Shown here in pieces: positions 1,192 through 32,932 of a stretch of DNA of 32,983 nt. The notes beneath the pieces were generated by a model that worked only from the letters and a program-made list of their open reading frames with translations, was not told the DNA's origin and did not search any database. Position numbers and translations under genes: made by a program. The DNA comes from Lachnospiraceae bacterium (lineage in GTDB: Bacteria; Bacillota; Clostridia; Lachnospirales; Lachnospiraceae). Every line of letters begins with the position of its first letter. Within the stretch, counting starts at the first letter, position 1. The stretch lies in contig JAEEGO010000192.1 of assembly GCA_016280355.1 (NCBI GenBank), forward strand, positions 1-32,983, given 5' to 3'.

Positions 1192-1379
1192 TCAAAGAGG
1201 GAGATATTTCAAGGCTCGATCCTGTGTATTGGTTTGAGTGTCCGAAATGCTGGTGCATTTATGAGGCTGTGAAAAGCGAATGCAGACCTGTAAGAATGGA
1301 TTACAACGGGGATGTGGGATATTATTACAAATGCCCAACTTGTGAATATGATGTTGCAGGAAAACCCAAGCTGATATGA
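1182..1379 (+). CDS. small zinc-ribbon-like protein
   Basis: CPKC...CPTC pairs; overlaps both neighbouring ORFs. Confidence 0.5.
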   Translation: MEIIKEGDISRLDPVYWFECPKCWCIYEAVKSECRPVRMDYNGDVGYYYKCPTCEYDVAGKPKLI

Positions 1380-3031
1380 CATATCTTGAAGAATATCACC
1401 GGGCGATACAGAGCGGTGAGCTGGTCGCAGGATACTGGATAAAAAAAGAGATCTCGCAGCTTGTGAAGGATATGCGGGATGAACGGTATATCTACGACAC
1501 TGCGGAGGCTCACAGGCGGTTCAGATTCATGGAAACGCTGTGCTTTCAGTCAAAGCAGCCGTATTATATGCAGCCTATCAGTCTGATGCCGTGGCAGCGT
1601 GCATGGTGGGAGGCAGTGTACAGCTTTCGCATGGCTGACACGGGGAAAAGACGGTTTACGGAGGGACTGCTTGAAGTGGCTCGTAAGAACGGCAAATCCA
1701 CCATGTTCGCGGCGGACGGGATGTGTGACCTGTTCATCGGGGAAAGCGGCATGGACATCTGCTGTGCATCCAACGATGACAGACAGGCGCGGCTCATCTG
1801 GTCGGAGATAGCGGGGATGAGGTCAAGGCTCGATCCGAAAAAGGCTATATCATCACAGAACCTTACGGAGATAAAGAACCGTGTGAAGGGTACGACAGTC
1901 TTCAGACTGTCGAGCAGGACACAGAACAAGGACGGTTTCAACATATCGAAGACTTTTCTCGATGAGAGCCATGATATATGCGAGGAAAACGGACAGAGTG
2001 AGGTCGCGGAGGCTTGCTGGCGCGGAATGAGCTCGAAGGATGAGCCACTATTTCTCAATTGCACTACGCAGGGCTTTAACCGGGAATGCTATCTTGATAA
2101 AAAAATACAGATGGCGAAGGAGATCATCAGCGGTGAATGGGACGATGAACATTTCATCGCATTCCTGTTCGAGCAGGACAGTGAATCGGAGATATGGCAG
2201 GACAAAAGTTCCTGGGCTAAGTCAAATCCGTCTTTGCCGTATGGAGTAAAGAAGATCTCACAGCTTGAGCGTGATGTTGAGAGGTCAAAGCATGACAAGG
2301 CGACACGCATCCATATGCTGACGAAGGATTTCAACGTCCCGCAGTCGGATGCAGTGGGATGGCTCATGCTTGAAGACTATGATCAGCCGTATGCTCCCGT
2401 GAACATGGACAAGCTCAGAGGGGCGCTTCTCCTCGGGGCGGTGGACTTGTCGGCTACAACGGACTTGACAAACGCAAAGGCGATGATCATGCTGCCGGAT
2501 GAGAAGAAGAAATATGTGCTGACAAAATACTTTATCCCGGAATGCAAGCTGACGGACAGTGCGGATAAAGAGGCAGGCGCTGACTATGTGCAATGGGCGC
2601 GTGACGGTTCTGTTGAGGTACATGAGGGCAAAAATGAGGTGGATCTTGAACGGGTGGCGGACTGGTTCTATTCACTGTATACGGAGTGGGGACTGCGCCC
2701 GTACAAGATAGGCTATGACCAGCGGTATGCAAAGACATTCAAGGAGCGCTGCGATGCTTACGGATTCGAGTATGAGATACTCGCACAGGGGCGTGCTCTG
2801 TCGAATGCGATGAAGCTGACTGAGGCAGACCTGAAGGCACGGCTCATCGAATACGGAGGCGATCCCGCTGACAAGTGGTGCCTGGGCAACTGCTGCTGTC
2901 AGGTGGACAACACGGGAATGATACAGCCTGTGAAGGCCCACTCAACTCACAACAAGCGCATTGACGGTGCGGTCACTCTGATCATGCTCGAAGAGATGTA
3001 CAGGAGATACAAAAATATATGGGCAAAATAA
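1376..3031 (+). CDS. terL: terminase large subunit
   Basis: 551 aa; Walker A-like EVARKNGKS, PWQRAWWEAVY, later DLSATTDLT nuclease-region motif; followed by portal/protease/capsid. Confidence 0.93.
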   Translation: MTYLEEYHRAIQSGELVAGYWIKKEISQLVKDMRDERYIYDTAEAHRRFRFMETLCFQSKQPYYMQPISLMPWQRAWWEAVYSFRMADTGKRRFTEGLLEVARKNGKSTMFAADGMCDLFIGESGMDICCASNDDRQARLIWSEIAGMRSRLDPKKAISSQNLTEIKNRVKGTTVFRLSSRTQNKDGFNISKTFLDESHDICEENGQSEVAEACWRGMSSKDEPLFLNCTTQGFNRECYLDKKIQMAKEIISGEWDDEHFIAFLFEQDSESEIWQDKSSWAKSNPSLPYGVKKISQLERDVERSKHDKATRIHMLTKDFNVPQSDAVGWLMLEDYDQPYAPVNMDKLRGALLLGAVDLSATTDLTNAKAMIMLPDEKKKYVLTKYFIPECKLTDSADKEAGADYVQWARDGSVEVHEGKNEVDLERVADWFYSLYTEWGLRPYKIGYDQRYAKTFKERCDAYGFEYEILAQGRALSNAMKLTEADLKARLIEYGGDPADKWCLGNCCCQVDNTGMIQPVKAHSTHNKRIDGAVTLIMLEEMYRRYKNIWAK

Positions 3032-3060
3032 TCCGCCTGCATTGTGCAGGCGGATATTGT
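3031..3060. terminator. bidirectional terminator between terL and the convergent cassette
   Basis: ATCCGCCTGCA-TTG-TGCAGGCGGAT (11-bp perfect stem) followed by ATTGTTTT; overlaps terL stop. Confidence 0.8.
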
Positions 3061-3061
3061 T

Positions 3062-3307
3062 TTACAGAGGGCGGCTGAGTTCATAGAGCTCGTGAGGGGC
3101 AATATCCTGCCCGTGAGCCCACTCTATGCCGTTACCGCCTGATATGACTCTAACACTGCGGAAATAGTTCACATCTTTCAGCTCACTGTACCAGTTACCT
3201 GTGATATAGGGGCTGACATCGAACAGCTTTTTCTCACTGTTCTCGTATTCAAGACGAAGGCGGTAATTATCCTCTGGTGTGACTGAGGTAAGTTTAGGCT
3301 GCAGCAT
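3062..3307 (-). CDS. DUF2442-like protein
   Basis: 81 aa with LRLEYENSEKKLFDVSPY and ISGGNGIEW patterns typical of DUF2442; RBS GGAGG. Confidence 0.65.
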   Translation of the reverse strand: MLQPKLTSVTPEDNYRLRLEYENSEKKLFDVSPYITGNWYSELKDVNYFRSVRVISGGNGIEWAHGQDIAPHELYELSRPL

Positions 3308-3316
3308 GATGACCTC

Positions 3317-3583
3317 CTATCTGAGGGGCTCGATCTTGAAGAACTGATCACCCTCCGAAAGTATTTTCCAGTTAGCTTCAAGATCGTCCTTATGTATCTC
3401 TATCCATGCCAACAGAAGTTTCATTTTGTTTTTGGGAATAGAGCCTTCAAGAACATCGCCTTCAAGAGATACTACGACTTCATCGCCCGAATATTCTGCA
3501 TGAATATGGGGTACATTGTGTTTTCCGCCTATCTCTCTGTACATTCTGACTATTATCCCGTAAAATATACTTAATACCGGCAT
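3317..3583 (-). CDS. DUF4160-like protein
   Basis: MPVLSIFYGIIVRMYREIGGKHNVPHIHAEYSGDEVVVSLEGDVLEGSIP is DUF4160-like; RBS AGGAGGAATAAT before internal ATG at 3583. Confidence 0.75.
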   Translation of the reverse strand: MPVLSIFYGIIVRMYREIGGKHNVPHIHAEYSGDEVVVSLEGDVLEGSIPKNKMKLLLAWIEIHKDDLEANWKILSEGDQFFKIEPLR

Positions 3584-3584
3584 A

Positions 3585-3788
3585 TTATTCCTCCTGAAAT
3601 TGTGTTCCGTGAGCGGACATATCCTCCTCAATGAGGCGGACTATATAGGCGTTCAGACTTTCACCGTTGGCGGTGCAGTATTCCTTTATACGGTCACGCT
3701 GACCTTTTTTCACAACGAATTTTATCTGGTCGTAGTTCTTCTGTGTATAGCGCTGTACTGCTTGTGCTCCTGCTTTTGTATATGCCAT
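3585..3788 (-). CDS. Arc/RHH-like small DNA-binding protein
   Basis: MAYTKAGAQAVQRYTQKNYDQIKFVVKKGQRDRIKEYCTANGESLNAYIVRLIEEDM; beta-strand plus two helices typical of Arc-like RHH. Confidence 0.7.
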   Translation of the reverse strand: MAYTKAGAQAVQRYTQKNYDQIKFVVKKGQRDRIKEYCTANGESLNAYIVRLIEEDMSAHGTQFQEE

Positions 3789-3811
3789 GATTATCACCGC
3801 CTTTCATAGAT

Positions 3812-3840
3812 ATTATAGCAGAAATATATATTAGTAACAA
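3812..3840 (-). promoter_or_regulatory. sigma70-like promoter of RHH/DUF4160/DUF2442 operon
   Basis: On minus strand TTGTTA (3840-3835), 17-nt spacer, TATAAT (3817-3812). Confidence 0.65.
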
Positions 3841-3843
3841 TAT
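3828..3843. promoter_or_regulatory. imperfect operator copy
   Basis: ATATTAGTAACAATAT; 14/16 match to the palindrome at 3894-3909. Confidence 0.6.
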
Positions 3844-3888
3844 ACATAATACACAAATATGCTCCTTAATGTTTGGCTGATATGTGCA

Positions 3889-3917
3889 TTGATATATTAG
3901 TACTAATATGTTATAAT
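3889..3917 (+). promoter_or_regulatory. sigma70-like promoter for small membrane peptide
   Basis: TTGATA, 17-nt spacer, TATAAT. Confidence 0.8.
3894..3909. promoter_or_regulatory. palindromic operator in promoter spacer
   Basis: ATATTAGTACTAATAT, a perfect 16-bp palindrome. Confidence 0.7.
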
Positions 3918-3942
3918 AATATACAGAAAGGAGGTGAGAAAA

Positions 3943-4068
3943 ATGCAGAAGGTCACAAAAAAGATTAAAGAGCTTGCAAAGCTGGTCGCACAGCTCAACA
4001 AACTCTTAATCAAAGTCATTAGCTTAGTGGGCTGGGTTCTGATACTCATTCACTTAGTTAATAACTAA
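3943..4068 (+). CDS. 41-aa amphipathic/transmembrane peptide
   Basis: MQKVTKKIKELAKLVAQLNKLLIKVISLVGWVLILIHLVNN; strong SD AAAGGAGGTGAG; below the size cutoff of the ORF track. Confidence 0.7.
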   Translation: MQKVTKKIKELAKLVAQLNKLLIKVISLVGWVLILIHLVNN

Positions 4069-4078
4069 AATCTCAAAG

Positions 4079-4103
4079 GTTCGGCGGCGATGAACCGCCG
4101 AAC
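4079..4103 (+). terminator. hairpin after small peptide gene
   Basis: GTTCGGCGG-CGATGAA-CCGCCGAAC, 9-bp stem; no strong T tract. Confidence 0.5.
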
Positions 4104-4146
4104 ACCTTAAGAATATTATACAATAAAACTTCTGCATTTGTCAAGT

Positions 4147-4269
4147 ATGAAAAGTGAAAAAAAGGAACTTTTCAGAGAGAGCGGCAAGCTGCTCCGGCAG
4201 GTAATACGGCTCATAGGTCTGCTTTGCGTGCTTGCTTTGCTCATCAGAGCCATAATTGATATGGTCTGA
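4147..4269 (+). CDS. possible second 40-aa membrane peptide
   Basis: MKSEKKELFRESGKLLRQVIRLIGLLCVLALLIRAIIDMV; charged N-terminus plus one hydrophobic segment; weak SD. Confidence 0.4.
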   Translation: MKSEKKELFRESGKLLRQVIRLIGLLCVLALLIRAIIDMV

Positions 4270-4277
4270 CATCAGAT

Positions 4278-4320
4278 CCCCGCCGTGGATGGTGTAACAT
4301 CTGCGGCGGGGTTCTTGTTT
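4278..4320 (+). terminator. rho-independent terminator
   Basis: CCCCGCCG...CGGCGGGG followed by TTCTTGTTT. Confidence 0.75.
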
Positions 4321-4396
4321 ATAAAAACTATGTCTAACATTTTCAGGAGTATTGAAAATAGGCTTGACAATGGGGTAAAATGGTGACAGGTATATC

Positions 4397-5644
4397 ATGA
4401 GCTCGTTTGCGGAGGTGAGAGATACGGGGATATTCGATTTTTTCAGGGGGCGGAAGTCCGGTGATGCAGCAGGACGGCATTATGCGGCTATGCTCAACGG
4501 TACTATGCCCATATACTCACAGTACGGGACGGATATATATTCCTCCGATGTGGTACAGCAGGCTATAAGCTGCATAGTCATGGAGATGAAAAAGCTCACT
4601 CCGAGACACATCAGAGTGGAAAGCGGTGATATGCTCCCTGTGGGAAGCAGTATTGACAAGCTGCTGAGAAAGCCCAACGGGATGATGAGCATATCGGACT
4701 TCATCGAAAAGGTCTACTGGCAGCTGTTCCTTAACTACAACTCTTTCATCGTTCCCACCTATGTGAGGAAATACAATGCGGACGGCTCATCCTACAAGGA
4801 ATACACGGGACTTTATCCCGTTGCTCCGGTACAGGTGGATTTCATCCGTGATGCTGCTGATGAGCTGGGCGTGCATTTCGTATTTTCGGGCGGGTATGAG
4901 TGTGATCTGCTGTATTCGGATGTGATCCATCTGAGATACAGATACTCCGTCAACGAGTTTATGGGCGGAAATGAGTTCGGGCAGCCCGACAACAGGGCTC
5001 TGCTCAAGACACTGGAGCTAAATGAGACGATGCTGACGGGGGTGGGTAAGGCTCTCAAGAGTTCCTTCTCCGTCAACGGCATCATCAAATACAACACGCT
5101 GCTCGATAATGGCTCGATGGACAGGGCGATAAAGGAACTGGAGGCGCATCTTGCCAACAATGAGAGCGGATTCCTGCCGATGGATTTGAAGGGTGAGTTC
5201 GTTCCGCTCAACAACAAGATACAGCTTGTAGATCCCAACACACTGAAATTCATTGATGAGAAGATCCTGCGGACATACCGCGTTCCCGTGGCGATACTAA
5301 CGGGAGATTACACGAAACAGACCTATGAGGCATGGTATCAGGGCTGCCTTGAGCCGTTGATAATCAACATATCCCAGGCATTCACGAACGGGCTGTTCAC
5401 GGAGCGGGAGCGTTCCTTCGGAAATGAGATAAAATTCTATCCGCATGAGCTGATATTCATGACAACGGAACAGAAGCTTGCCTTGTTCGACATTCTGACG
5501 GACAGTGCAAGCTGCTACAAGAATGAGCTGAGAACGGCGTTCGGTATGTATCCGCTTGAGGAGCTCAAAGGTCAGCTGGCGGTATCGAGCAATAAATCAA
5601 ACGCTATGAACAATGAAGCGGACGGAGGCGGAGATAATGGGTGA
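4397..5644 (+). CDS. portal protein (HK97 family)
   Basis: 415 aa; position after terL; AVQQAISCIVMEMKKL-type N-terminus, LRKPNGMMSISDFIE and RVPVAILTGDYTKQTYEAWYQ. Confidence 0.9.
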   Translation: MSSFAEVRDTGIFDFFRGRKSGDAAGRHYAAMLNGTMPIYSQYGTDIYSSDVVQQAISCIVMEMKKLTPRHIRVESGDMLPVGSSIDKLLRKPNGMMSISDFIEKVYWQLFLNYNSFIVPTYVRKYNADGSSYKEYTGLYPVAPVQVDFIRDAADELGVHFVFSGGYECDLLYSDVIHLRYRYSVNEFMGGNEFGQPDNRALLKTLELNETMLTGVGKALKSSFSVNGIIKYNTLLDNGSMDRAIKELEAHLANNESGFLPMDLKGEFVPLNNKIQLVDPNTLKFIDEKILRTYRVPVAILTGDYTKQTYEAWYQGCLEPLIINISQAFTNGLFTERERSFGNEIKFYPHELIFMTTEQKLALFDILTDSASCYKNELRTAFGMYPLEELKGQLAVSSNKSNAMNNEADGGGDNG

Positions 5645-27798: not shown

Positions 27799-27879
27799 CA
27801 TAAGTGGGATAGTGGTACTATATTAATCAACCACCAATATTATACCACTTTTCCTGAGAAATGTCAAGGGGTAAGGAAC

Positions 27880-31772: not shown

Positions 31773-32174
31773 ATGCAGATGGCTGTTAATCCGAAATCAC
31801 TTGAAAATCTTAAAAAACACACGACCGAAGAGCTGAAGGCATACGGGAGCTACGGCGGGAGAGTGAAGGCACAGAAACAGAGGGAGCGGAAGGCTGCAGC
31901 GAATGCAGCCATAGAAGCAGCTGCTATACTGAACAAGGCTCTGCCGAAGGATCTGAAAAAGGAGCTCGATGAGCTCATCGGCATGGATGAGCCCACATAC
32001 AGGACTTATGCGCTGGGTTTGCTGCTTGCCATATCGAGAGAGGGTGCAAAGGACAGCGACCGCATAACGGCGATAAAGAGTCTGTTCGAGTATGCGCGTG
32101 AAGATCCTGACTATGAGATCAGGATGAAGGATCTTGAAATAAAAAAGCAGCGTGCGGATAACGAGGAGTTCTGA
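31773..32174 (+). CDS. probable terminase small subunit
   Basis: 133 aa helical basic protein (GSYGGRVKAQKQRERKAA...); adjacent to HNH at the genome end. Confidence 0.5.
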   Translation: MQMAVNPKSLENLKKHTTEELKAYGSYGGRVKAQKQRERKAAANAAIEAAAILNKALPKDLKKELDELIGMDEPTYRTYALGLLLAISREGAKDSDRITAIKSLFEYAREDPDYEIRMKDLEIKKQRADNEEF

Positions 32175-32219
32175 TGGCGGCGAAACGCCGCAGTTATTTC
32201 ACAGCTTTATGTCTTTATC

Positions 32220-32301
32220 GGAGGAAAAATGTTTGCATTAAGGACATTTTATCAGTCATAGGAGGAAAAATGTTTGCATTAAGGACATTCTATCAGTCAA
32301 A
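32220..32301 (+). repeat. 41-bp tandem duplication of SD + start codon
   Basis: GGAGGAAAAATGTTTGCATTAAGGACATTTTATCAGTCATA then GGAGGAAAAATGTTTGCATTAAGGACATTCTATCAGTCAAA. Confidence 0.95.
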
Positions 32302-32932
32302 GGACTGGTGTGCTTTCCGGGAGCGGCTCATACATGAGCGGACGGATGACAATGGTGAGGTCATATGCGCACACTGCGGAAAGCCGATATATAAGAAATA
32401 CGACATCATCGGGCATCATATCAAGGAGCTGACAGAGGACAACGTGAATGATGCACTCGTTGCGTTCAATCCCGATAACGTTGAGCTGATACACTTCCGC
32501 TGCCATAATATCAAGCATCAGAGATATGACGGATTCCGACAGTATGTGTATATCGTCCACGGTGCGCCTTGTGCAGGAAAAACCACCTGGGTGATCAACA
32601 ATGCATATGATGATGATCTTATTGTTGATATGGACAGGCTGTGGGAGAGCGTGTGCTTCCGTGGAAGAGAAGACAAGCCGAACAGGCTCAAAGCGAACGT
32701 GTTCGGCTTGCGGGACTGCCTCATCGAGCAGATAAAGCTCAGGAAGGGCAAATGGCGGAACGCCTATGTGATAGGGATGTATCCGCTTGCATCGGAACGG
32801 GACAGGCTGTGTGAGATGCTTGGTGCGCGGTGCATACACATCGACACCGACAAGAGCGTATGCCTGTCAAGAGCTGTCAACGATGACTGGTGCGGATACA
32901 TCGAGGATTACTTTGAGGCGTTCACTCGTTAG
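32270..32932 (+). CDS. HNH endonuclease fused to P-loop kinase-like domain (alternative start 32174)
   Basis: CAHCGKPI...DIIGHHIKEL...NPDNVELIHFRCHN (HNH) followed by VYIVHGAPCAGKTTWV (Walker A). Confidence 0.85.
   Translation: MFALRTFYQSKDWCAFRERLIHERTDDNGEVICAHCGKPIYKKYDIIGHHIKELTEDNVNDALVAFNPDNVELIHFRCHNIKHQRYDGFRQYVYIVHGAPCAGKTTWVINNAYDDDLIVDMDRLWESVCFRGREDKPNRLKANVFGLRDCLIEQIKLRKGKWRNAYVIGMYPLASERDRLCEMLGARCIHIDTDKSVCLSRAVNDDWCGYIEDYFEAFTR

Follow-up and report, generated by a model that had tools for sequence, protein, structure and literature searches.

A moron that probably unites a type I peptide/antisense-RNA module with a DhiT/DhiA-like pair in a Lachnospiraceae phage

In its layout, the closest described counterpart of the locus reported here is yonT/yoyJ/SR6, a type I toxin-antitoxin system of the Bacillus subtilis prophage SPbeta in which two small toxin genes share one transcript and a single antisense RNA begins between them, overlapping about 65 bp of the yonT 3′ end and 30–40 bp of yoyJ (PMC5848175). 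Small membrane peptides and antisense RNAs are likewise combined in Clostridia prophages by the Clostridioides difficile pairs CD0956.2-RCd10 and CD0977.1-RCd11 and their relatives (PMC7699646; PMC6563280), and type I systems of C. difficile prophages have been shown to maintain the prophage that carries them (PMC7699646). Among type II systems, DhiT/DhiA of Dickeya dadantii has the toxin gene first and employs the toxin as a co-repressor, and the neutralization of DUF4160 toxicity by a DUF2442 protein has been shown for relatives of the pair described below (PMC8198452). On Thermus plasmids a DUF4160/DUF2442 pair raises persistence; no transformants were obtained with a plasmid from which the DUF2442 gene was missing, and plasmid deletions suggest neutralization there too (PMC12724237). 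The juxtaposition of type I and type II systems has a precedent in Enterococcus faecalis, where txpA-RatA lies beside mazEF and regulatory cross-talk between the two has been reported (PMC6563280).

The cassette and its minus-strand operon

The window, that is, the whole stretch of 32,983 nucleotides analyzed here, carries a temperate phage with genes for terL, portal, protease, capsid, endolysin, integrase, a CI-like repressor and a terminase-small-subunit-like protein. Its terL and portal genes are separated by 1.36 kb holding three minus-strand genes, encoding RHH, DUF4160 and DUF2442 proteins, and two plus-strand peptides of about 40 amino acids (Table 1), a gene content that an earlier note on this DNA had read correctly. 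The same two phage genes are adjacent in all 24 of the IMG/VR viral-contig relatives compared, whose terL is 40–73% identical to that of the window; the BLAST-aligned ends lie 9–96 bp apart in these relatives versus 1366 bp here, and the peptides were found in none of these 24 contigs. Because terL and portal are uninterrupted in every relative, the cassette is an insertion, a moron, and the claim that it breaks a normally contiguous gene order is borne out. The terminators said to bracket it were also located, the left one readable in both directions. The cassette had further been described as running against the late operon; this holds for the minus-strand genes but not for the peptides, which share the direction of the late operon.

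Several features of the surrounding phage can be recorded alongside. As a result of the insertion, terL and portal are separated by two plus-strand terminators, and the sole promoter-like site ahead of portal is TTGAAA-18-TAAAAT (10/12) at 4352–4381; the late genes from portal onward may need a promoter of their own or antitermination. A tRNA gene lies within the phage (25151–25215, plus strand; Rfam RF00005). Since the terminase-small-subunit-like gene (32174–32932) and terL occupy opposite ends of the contig, right and left respectively, the contig may represent a circularly permuted phage genome.

Table 1. Features of the cassette and its flanking phage genes, in window coordinates.
Feature	Position	Strand	Remarks
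terL	1376–3031		Pfam
Bidirectional intrinsic terminator	3031–3055	both	Follows both terL and the DUF2442 gene; marks left edge of insertion
DUF2442 protein, DhiA-like antitoxin	3062–3307	-	81 aa; Pfam PF10387, E 2.6e-13; role from PMC8198452, PMC12724237
DUF4160 protein, DhiT-like toxin	3317–3583	-	88 aa; ATG at 3583; Pfam PF13711, E 7.6e-22
RHH/Arc-like DNA-binding protein, predicted repressor	3585–3788	-	67 aa; first in operon; phrog_13890, 4.4e-13
Promoter of RHH-DUF4160-DUF2442 operon	3812–3840	-	TTGTTA-17-TATAAT (10/12)
Putative RHH operator 1	3826–3843		18-nt direct repeat; overlaps -35 of RHH promoter
Sense promoter of peptides	3889–3917	+	TTGATA-17-TATAAT (11/12)
Putative RHH operator 2	3892–3909		With palindrome TATTAGTACTAATA; in spacer of peptide promoter
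Peptide 1, predicted type I membrane toxin	3943–4068	+	41 aa; ATG; strong ribosome-binding site; phrog_7712, 3.6e-5
Intrinsic terminator of antisense RNA	3957–4005	-	Stem 4005–3970, T-rich tail 3969–3957; within peptide 1 codons
Predicted antisense antitoxin RNA	3957–4107	-	About 150 nt; start from promoter 4144–4115, end from terminator 4005–3957
GC-rich hairpin at antisense RNA 5′ end	4078–4106	-	In 3′ UTR of peptide 1
Antisense promoter	4115–4144	-	TTGACA-18-TATAAT (12/12); abuts start codon of peptide 2
Peptide 2, second membrane peptide	4147–4269	+	40 aa; phrog_7712, 0.0049; profile match common to related loci
Terminator of peptide transcript	4278–4311	+	Right edge of cassette
Portal	4397–5644		Pfam

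The first gene of the minus-strand operon bears an RHH signature, with matches to Arc-like phrogs and, among solved structures in the PDB, to AmrZ, Mnt, ParG and Arc; the predicted fold of the protein was too uncertain to strengthen this assignment, and as a query against viral contigs the protein returned no matches. Over the aligned part it is 40 and 35% identical, respectively, to the RHH proteins encoded divergently from the peptides at two related loci, L120 and L098. Behind it, the DUF4160 and DUF2442 genes are adjacent and the toxin gene comes first, as expected for a type II system of the DhiT/DhiA kind. Against the NCBIfam model toxin_DhiT the DUF4160 protein scores 54.2 bits (E 1.7e-14), below the equivalog cut-off of 100 bits, and by this match it is a homologue of DhiT outside the named equivalog. 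To judge by sequence, then, the pair belongs to the already known DhiT/DhiA type II toxin-antitoxin family, so that its earlier description as toxin-antitoxin-like is both upheld and made more specific (PMC8198452; PMC12724237). Both families are shared with Dickeya DhiT/DhiA (PMC8198452) and Thermus PEM (PMC12724237), as is the antitoxin gene directly downstream of the toxin gene; unlike in those systems, the pair in the window stands behind an RHH gene and diverges from a peptide module.

The peptide module and its antisense signals

Each of the two peptides has a charged, amphipathic N-terminal part and a single, C-terminal hydrophobic segment with a mean hydropathy of 2.4–2.5 over 17 residues. 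Small hydrophobic membrane peptides encoded on mobile elements are characteristic of type I toxins, and the peptides described here are of this kind, being carried by prophages, phages and a plasmid. In the arrangement of their segments they differ from the CD0956.2-type toxins, which have a hydrophobic N-terminus and a lysine-rich C-terminal tail (PMC7699646), an order reversed in the window peptides. Peptide 2 shows no ribosome-binding site in several loci, the window copy among them. The promoter sitting at the peptide 2 start codon may limit synthesis of the peptide, and in the window the lack of a ribosome-binding site may do so as well.

That promoter is a strong element which the earlier note, accurate on the terminators, had missed: it reads back over peptide 1 from the start codon of peptide 2. 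Promoter-like sites of at least 11/12 number four on both strands of the 33 kb, and two of these flank peptide 1; another perfect 12/12 site of the sigma-70 type, TTGACA-17-TATAAT, is found at 27867 on the minus strand. When the stretch between the two peptides was scored in 11 loci, the antisense strand exceeded dinucleotide shuffles (combined p 1.8e-7) and the sense strand showed no excess (combined p 0.59), although combined p-values of this sort overstate independence because all loci share ancestry. In seven loci, the window included, the antisense -35 element starts 1–3 nt ahead of the peptide 2 start codon. Taken singly, the antisense promoters fall short of significance in L076, L091, L100 and the C. 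difficile loci (p 0.13–0.40), and so does that of L087, where the start codon used was probably placed too far upstream: a GTG lying 18 nt further on restores the usual spacing.

An RNA initiated at this promoter would carry near its 5′ end a GC-rich hairpin, which has a counterpart at the equivalent position of related loci, and would be terminated inside the peptide 1 reading frame, where the antisense of the KELxKLVxQLxKL codons folds as a hairpin followed by TTTTATTTT or a similar tract. In 11 of 11 loci this hairpin is more stable than synonymous recodings of the same codons (2000 per locus), with p 0.034 for the window and 0.0005–0.02 for the 10 relatives, and 89% of cells retain the stem pairs, as against 21–49% in slid controls. 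Covariation in the stem is modest, with eight doubly changed cells, a count that 3 of 500 shuffles also attained, and with the other measures unremarkable. A search of Rfam gave no relevant family for the cassette.

The putative RHH operators, one in each of the two divergent promoters, are 18-nt direct repeats that are 89% identical, and within the window their core TATTAGTA occurs at these two sites only. At the corresponding promoter position ACACGGCTATAT is present three times in L098 and an ATAAG..CTTAT palindrome twice in L120, both loci again possessing an RHH gene, and a palindrome lies in or beside the spacer in several sense promoters of related loci.

Related loci and linked regulators

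Peptide 1 has homologues in phages of C. difficile, in genomes and viral contigs from several Clostridia, and on pTM2, an 8.2-kb plasmid of Terrisporobacter mayombei with no phage genes in the stretch seen. A recurrent layout, consisting of a sense promoter, peptide 1, a hairpin, an antisense promoter abutting the peptide 2 start and peptide 2 itself, is present in diverse Clostridia prophages, in C. difficile phages and on the Terrisporobacter plasmid, with the second peptide roughly 60–100 bp downstream of the first in almost every locus; it is absent from one C. difficile type (L058). The earlier note had proposed a neighborhood comparison across genomes as a check, and in that comparison the peptides are conserved, in the same order, at the same spacing and with the same antisense signals; the position of the antisense promoter and the embedding of the terminator in peptide 1 codons recur in elements that are otherwise unrelated. 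Annotation of these loci is sparse: in the annotated C. difficile phage records L055 and L057 the peptide 1 match falls outside every annotated gene, the records behind L056 and L058 carry no annotation, and a hypothetical protein is listed at the site in some plasmid records of C. difficile. The L056 record, Clostridioides phage ES-S-0173-01, has three successive copies of peptide 1 (14–190, 1423–1653 and 2603–2755), and a copy on a Sarcina plasmid (L101, 1501–1721) looks decayed, with stop codons immediately ahead of the peptide 1 frame, for which no start codon was seen.

Further loci were recovered after the layout pattern had already been defined. A covariance model built on just the terminator region, run on 392 genomes of the order, retrieved L105, L107 and L108, and a peptide profile retrieved L120; peptide 2 lies downstream in four of these four. 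The antisense promoter test gave a combined p of 0.001 for L107, L108 and L120, loci of shared ancestry in which the sites stand 2–6 nt ahead of the peptide 2 start; L105 was inspected by eye only. Three other hits of the RNA model, L106, L109 and L114 (E 2e-5 to 5e-5), were rejected as modules, being ordinary hairpins or coding sequence. Copies are scarce in the collections covered: by the RNA model, genuine-looking ones are present in about six of the 392 genomes of the order, the genome of the window included. The peptide-profile scan of genome contigs confirmed two loci only, the exact DNA pattern matched one of 391 genomes of the class, again that of the window, and phrog_7712 hits in 99 relatives were, besides the window, mostly fragments within larger ORFs.

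A small regulator gene usually adjoins the peptide module. It is of the XRE type at L076, L087, L089 and L092 and in the C. difficile phages, AbrB genes take the place on pTM2, and an RHH or RHH-like gene is found in the window and at L091, L098 and L120, divergent from the peptides at the latter two. DhiTA accompanies the module in the window only, among the loci compared, and DhiT-DhiA pairs without an adjacent RHH gene occur at L022 and L049. An RHH gene and promoter repeats recur together at L098 and L120; the RHH gene would belong to the peptide module, with DhiTA added behind it. The peptides and the minus-strand genes had previously been regarded as a single unit; the comparison instead points to the peptide pair as a portable module in its own right, and of the minus-strand genes it is the divergent RHH gene that keeps company with it, at L098 and L120.

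A two-lock model and its alternatives

Taken together, these observations make it probable that the cassette is a moron joining a type I peptide/antisense-RNA module, an RHH lock and a DhiT/DhiA type II pair, a reading in which the toxin-antitoxin moron proposed earlier is supported and gains both a named type II family and a type I anatomy with antisense RNA signals. Under this model, peptide 1 and probably peptide 2 would be small membrane toxins, and the antisense RNA of about 150 nt would act as the antitoxin by base-pairing along nearly the full length of the peptide 1 reading frame and blocking peptide 1 synthesis, perhaps through RNase III as in SR6/yonT (PMC5848175). A second, transcriptional lock would be provided by the divergent RHH protein, which would bind the related sites in both promoters and repress the peptides as well as its own operon, in which the DhiT/DhiA pair follows. 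Both locks would hold in a lysogen; upon loss of the element, the repressor and the antisense RNA would decay first and the peptides would act on the membrane, and the element would therefore be retained. Element maintenance is the likeliest role and best fits the carriage of the module by prophages, C. difficile phages and a small plasmid; by analogy, it is the role shown for other type I systems of C. difficile prophages (PMC7699646).

The likeness to yonT/yoyJ/SR6 (PMC5848175) is one of layout, with two small genes, for toxins there and for predicted toxins here, on one prophage-borne transcript and a single antisense RNA, here a predicted one, beginning between them. SR6 overlaps yonT only at its 3′ end, whereas the RNA predicted here would span almost the whole of peptide 1, and a repressor gene is linked here. 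In the accounts of the C. difficile prophage type I systems (PMC7699646; PMC6563280), no linked repressor is described. With respect to txpA-RatA and mazEF, the toxin and antitoxin families are others, and cross-talk in the present cassette would go through the RHH repressor.

Other readings of the cassette can be set against this model. Small membrane peptides in a moron of a temperate phage equipped with an integrase, a CI-like repressor and an endolysin might be phage effectors, involved in superinfection exclusion or in modulating lysis, with the antisense RNA and the repressor adjusting their dose, and the copies found directly behind an amidase gene (L076) and near amidase and recombinase genes (L098) would suit such a function. 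The module is, however, also carried by pTM2, and from phage to phage it sits at positions unrelated to each other; type I toxin-antitoxin systems typically have a dedicated antisense RNA, and a PADLOC search matched the cassette to no defence or exclusion family; superinfection exclusion, as the earlier note had suggested, finds no support in these results, and an effector function is unlikely.

It is considerably less probable still that the RHH protein is the type II antitoxin of a peptide or of DhiT in one protein toxin-antitoxin system of three or four parts, with an incidental antisense promoter. Type II antitoxins are often RHH proteins, and the RHH gene heads the operon containing DhiT, but DhiT has an antitoxin gene of its own next to it and does without an adjacent RHH gene at L022 and L049, the peptide module pairs elsewhere with XRE or AbrB genes in place of RHH, and the antisense promoter and terminator are conserved. 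Chance remains to be weighed, given that short ORFs arise frequently by chance and AT-rich DNA readily yields matches to promoter consensus sequences, such that DhiTA and RHH alone might be functional and the peptides and antisense signals accidents of an AT-rich intergenic region; this is the least credible of the readings, already contradicted by conservation, for phages and plasmids from several families of Clostridia carry peptide homologues in which order, spacing and antisense signals are all retained.

Within the toxin-antitoxin reading, the new part is the plus-strand half, the DUF4160/DUF2442 pair being a known one. It appears rather likely, if with less assurance than the composite nature of the cassette, that this half belongs to an undescribed mobile family of two-peptide type I toxin-antitoxin systems, marked by a terminator dual-coded with the amphipathic helix of the toxin, an antisense promoter abutting the peptide 2 start codon and a swappable RHH, XRE or AbrB second lock, the operator region being shared in the window with a divergent DhiTA; no described function for the peptide family was found within an incomplete coverage of the literature, and an earlier description is possible. 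If this is correct, a scattered and largely unannotated type I family would be present in prophages and plasmids of the Clostridia, C. difficile phages included, and a simple RNA signature would be available for finding further modules. The codons of the toxin would be constrained by the terminator of its own antitoxin RNA, and the cassette would represent a natural union of type I and type II modules on a single phage insertion.
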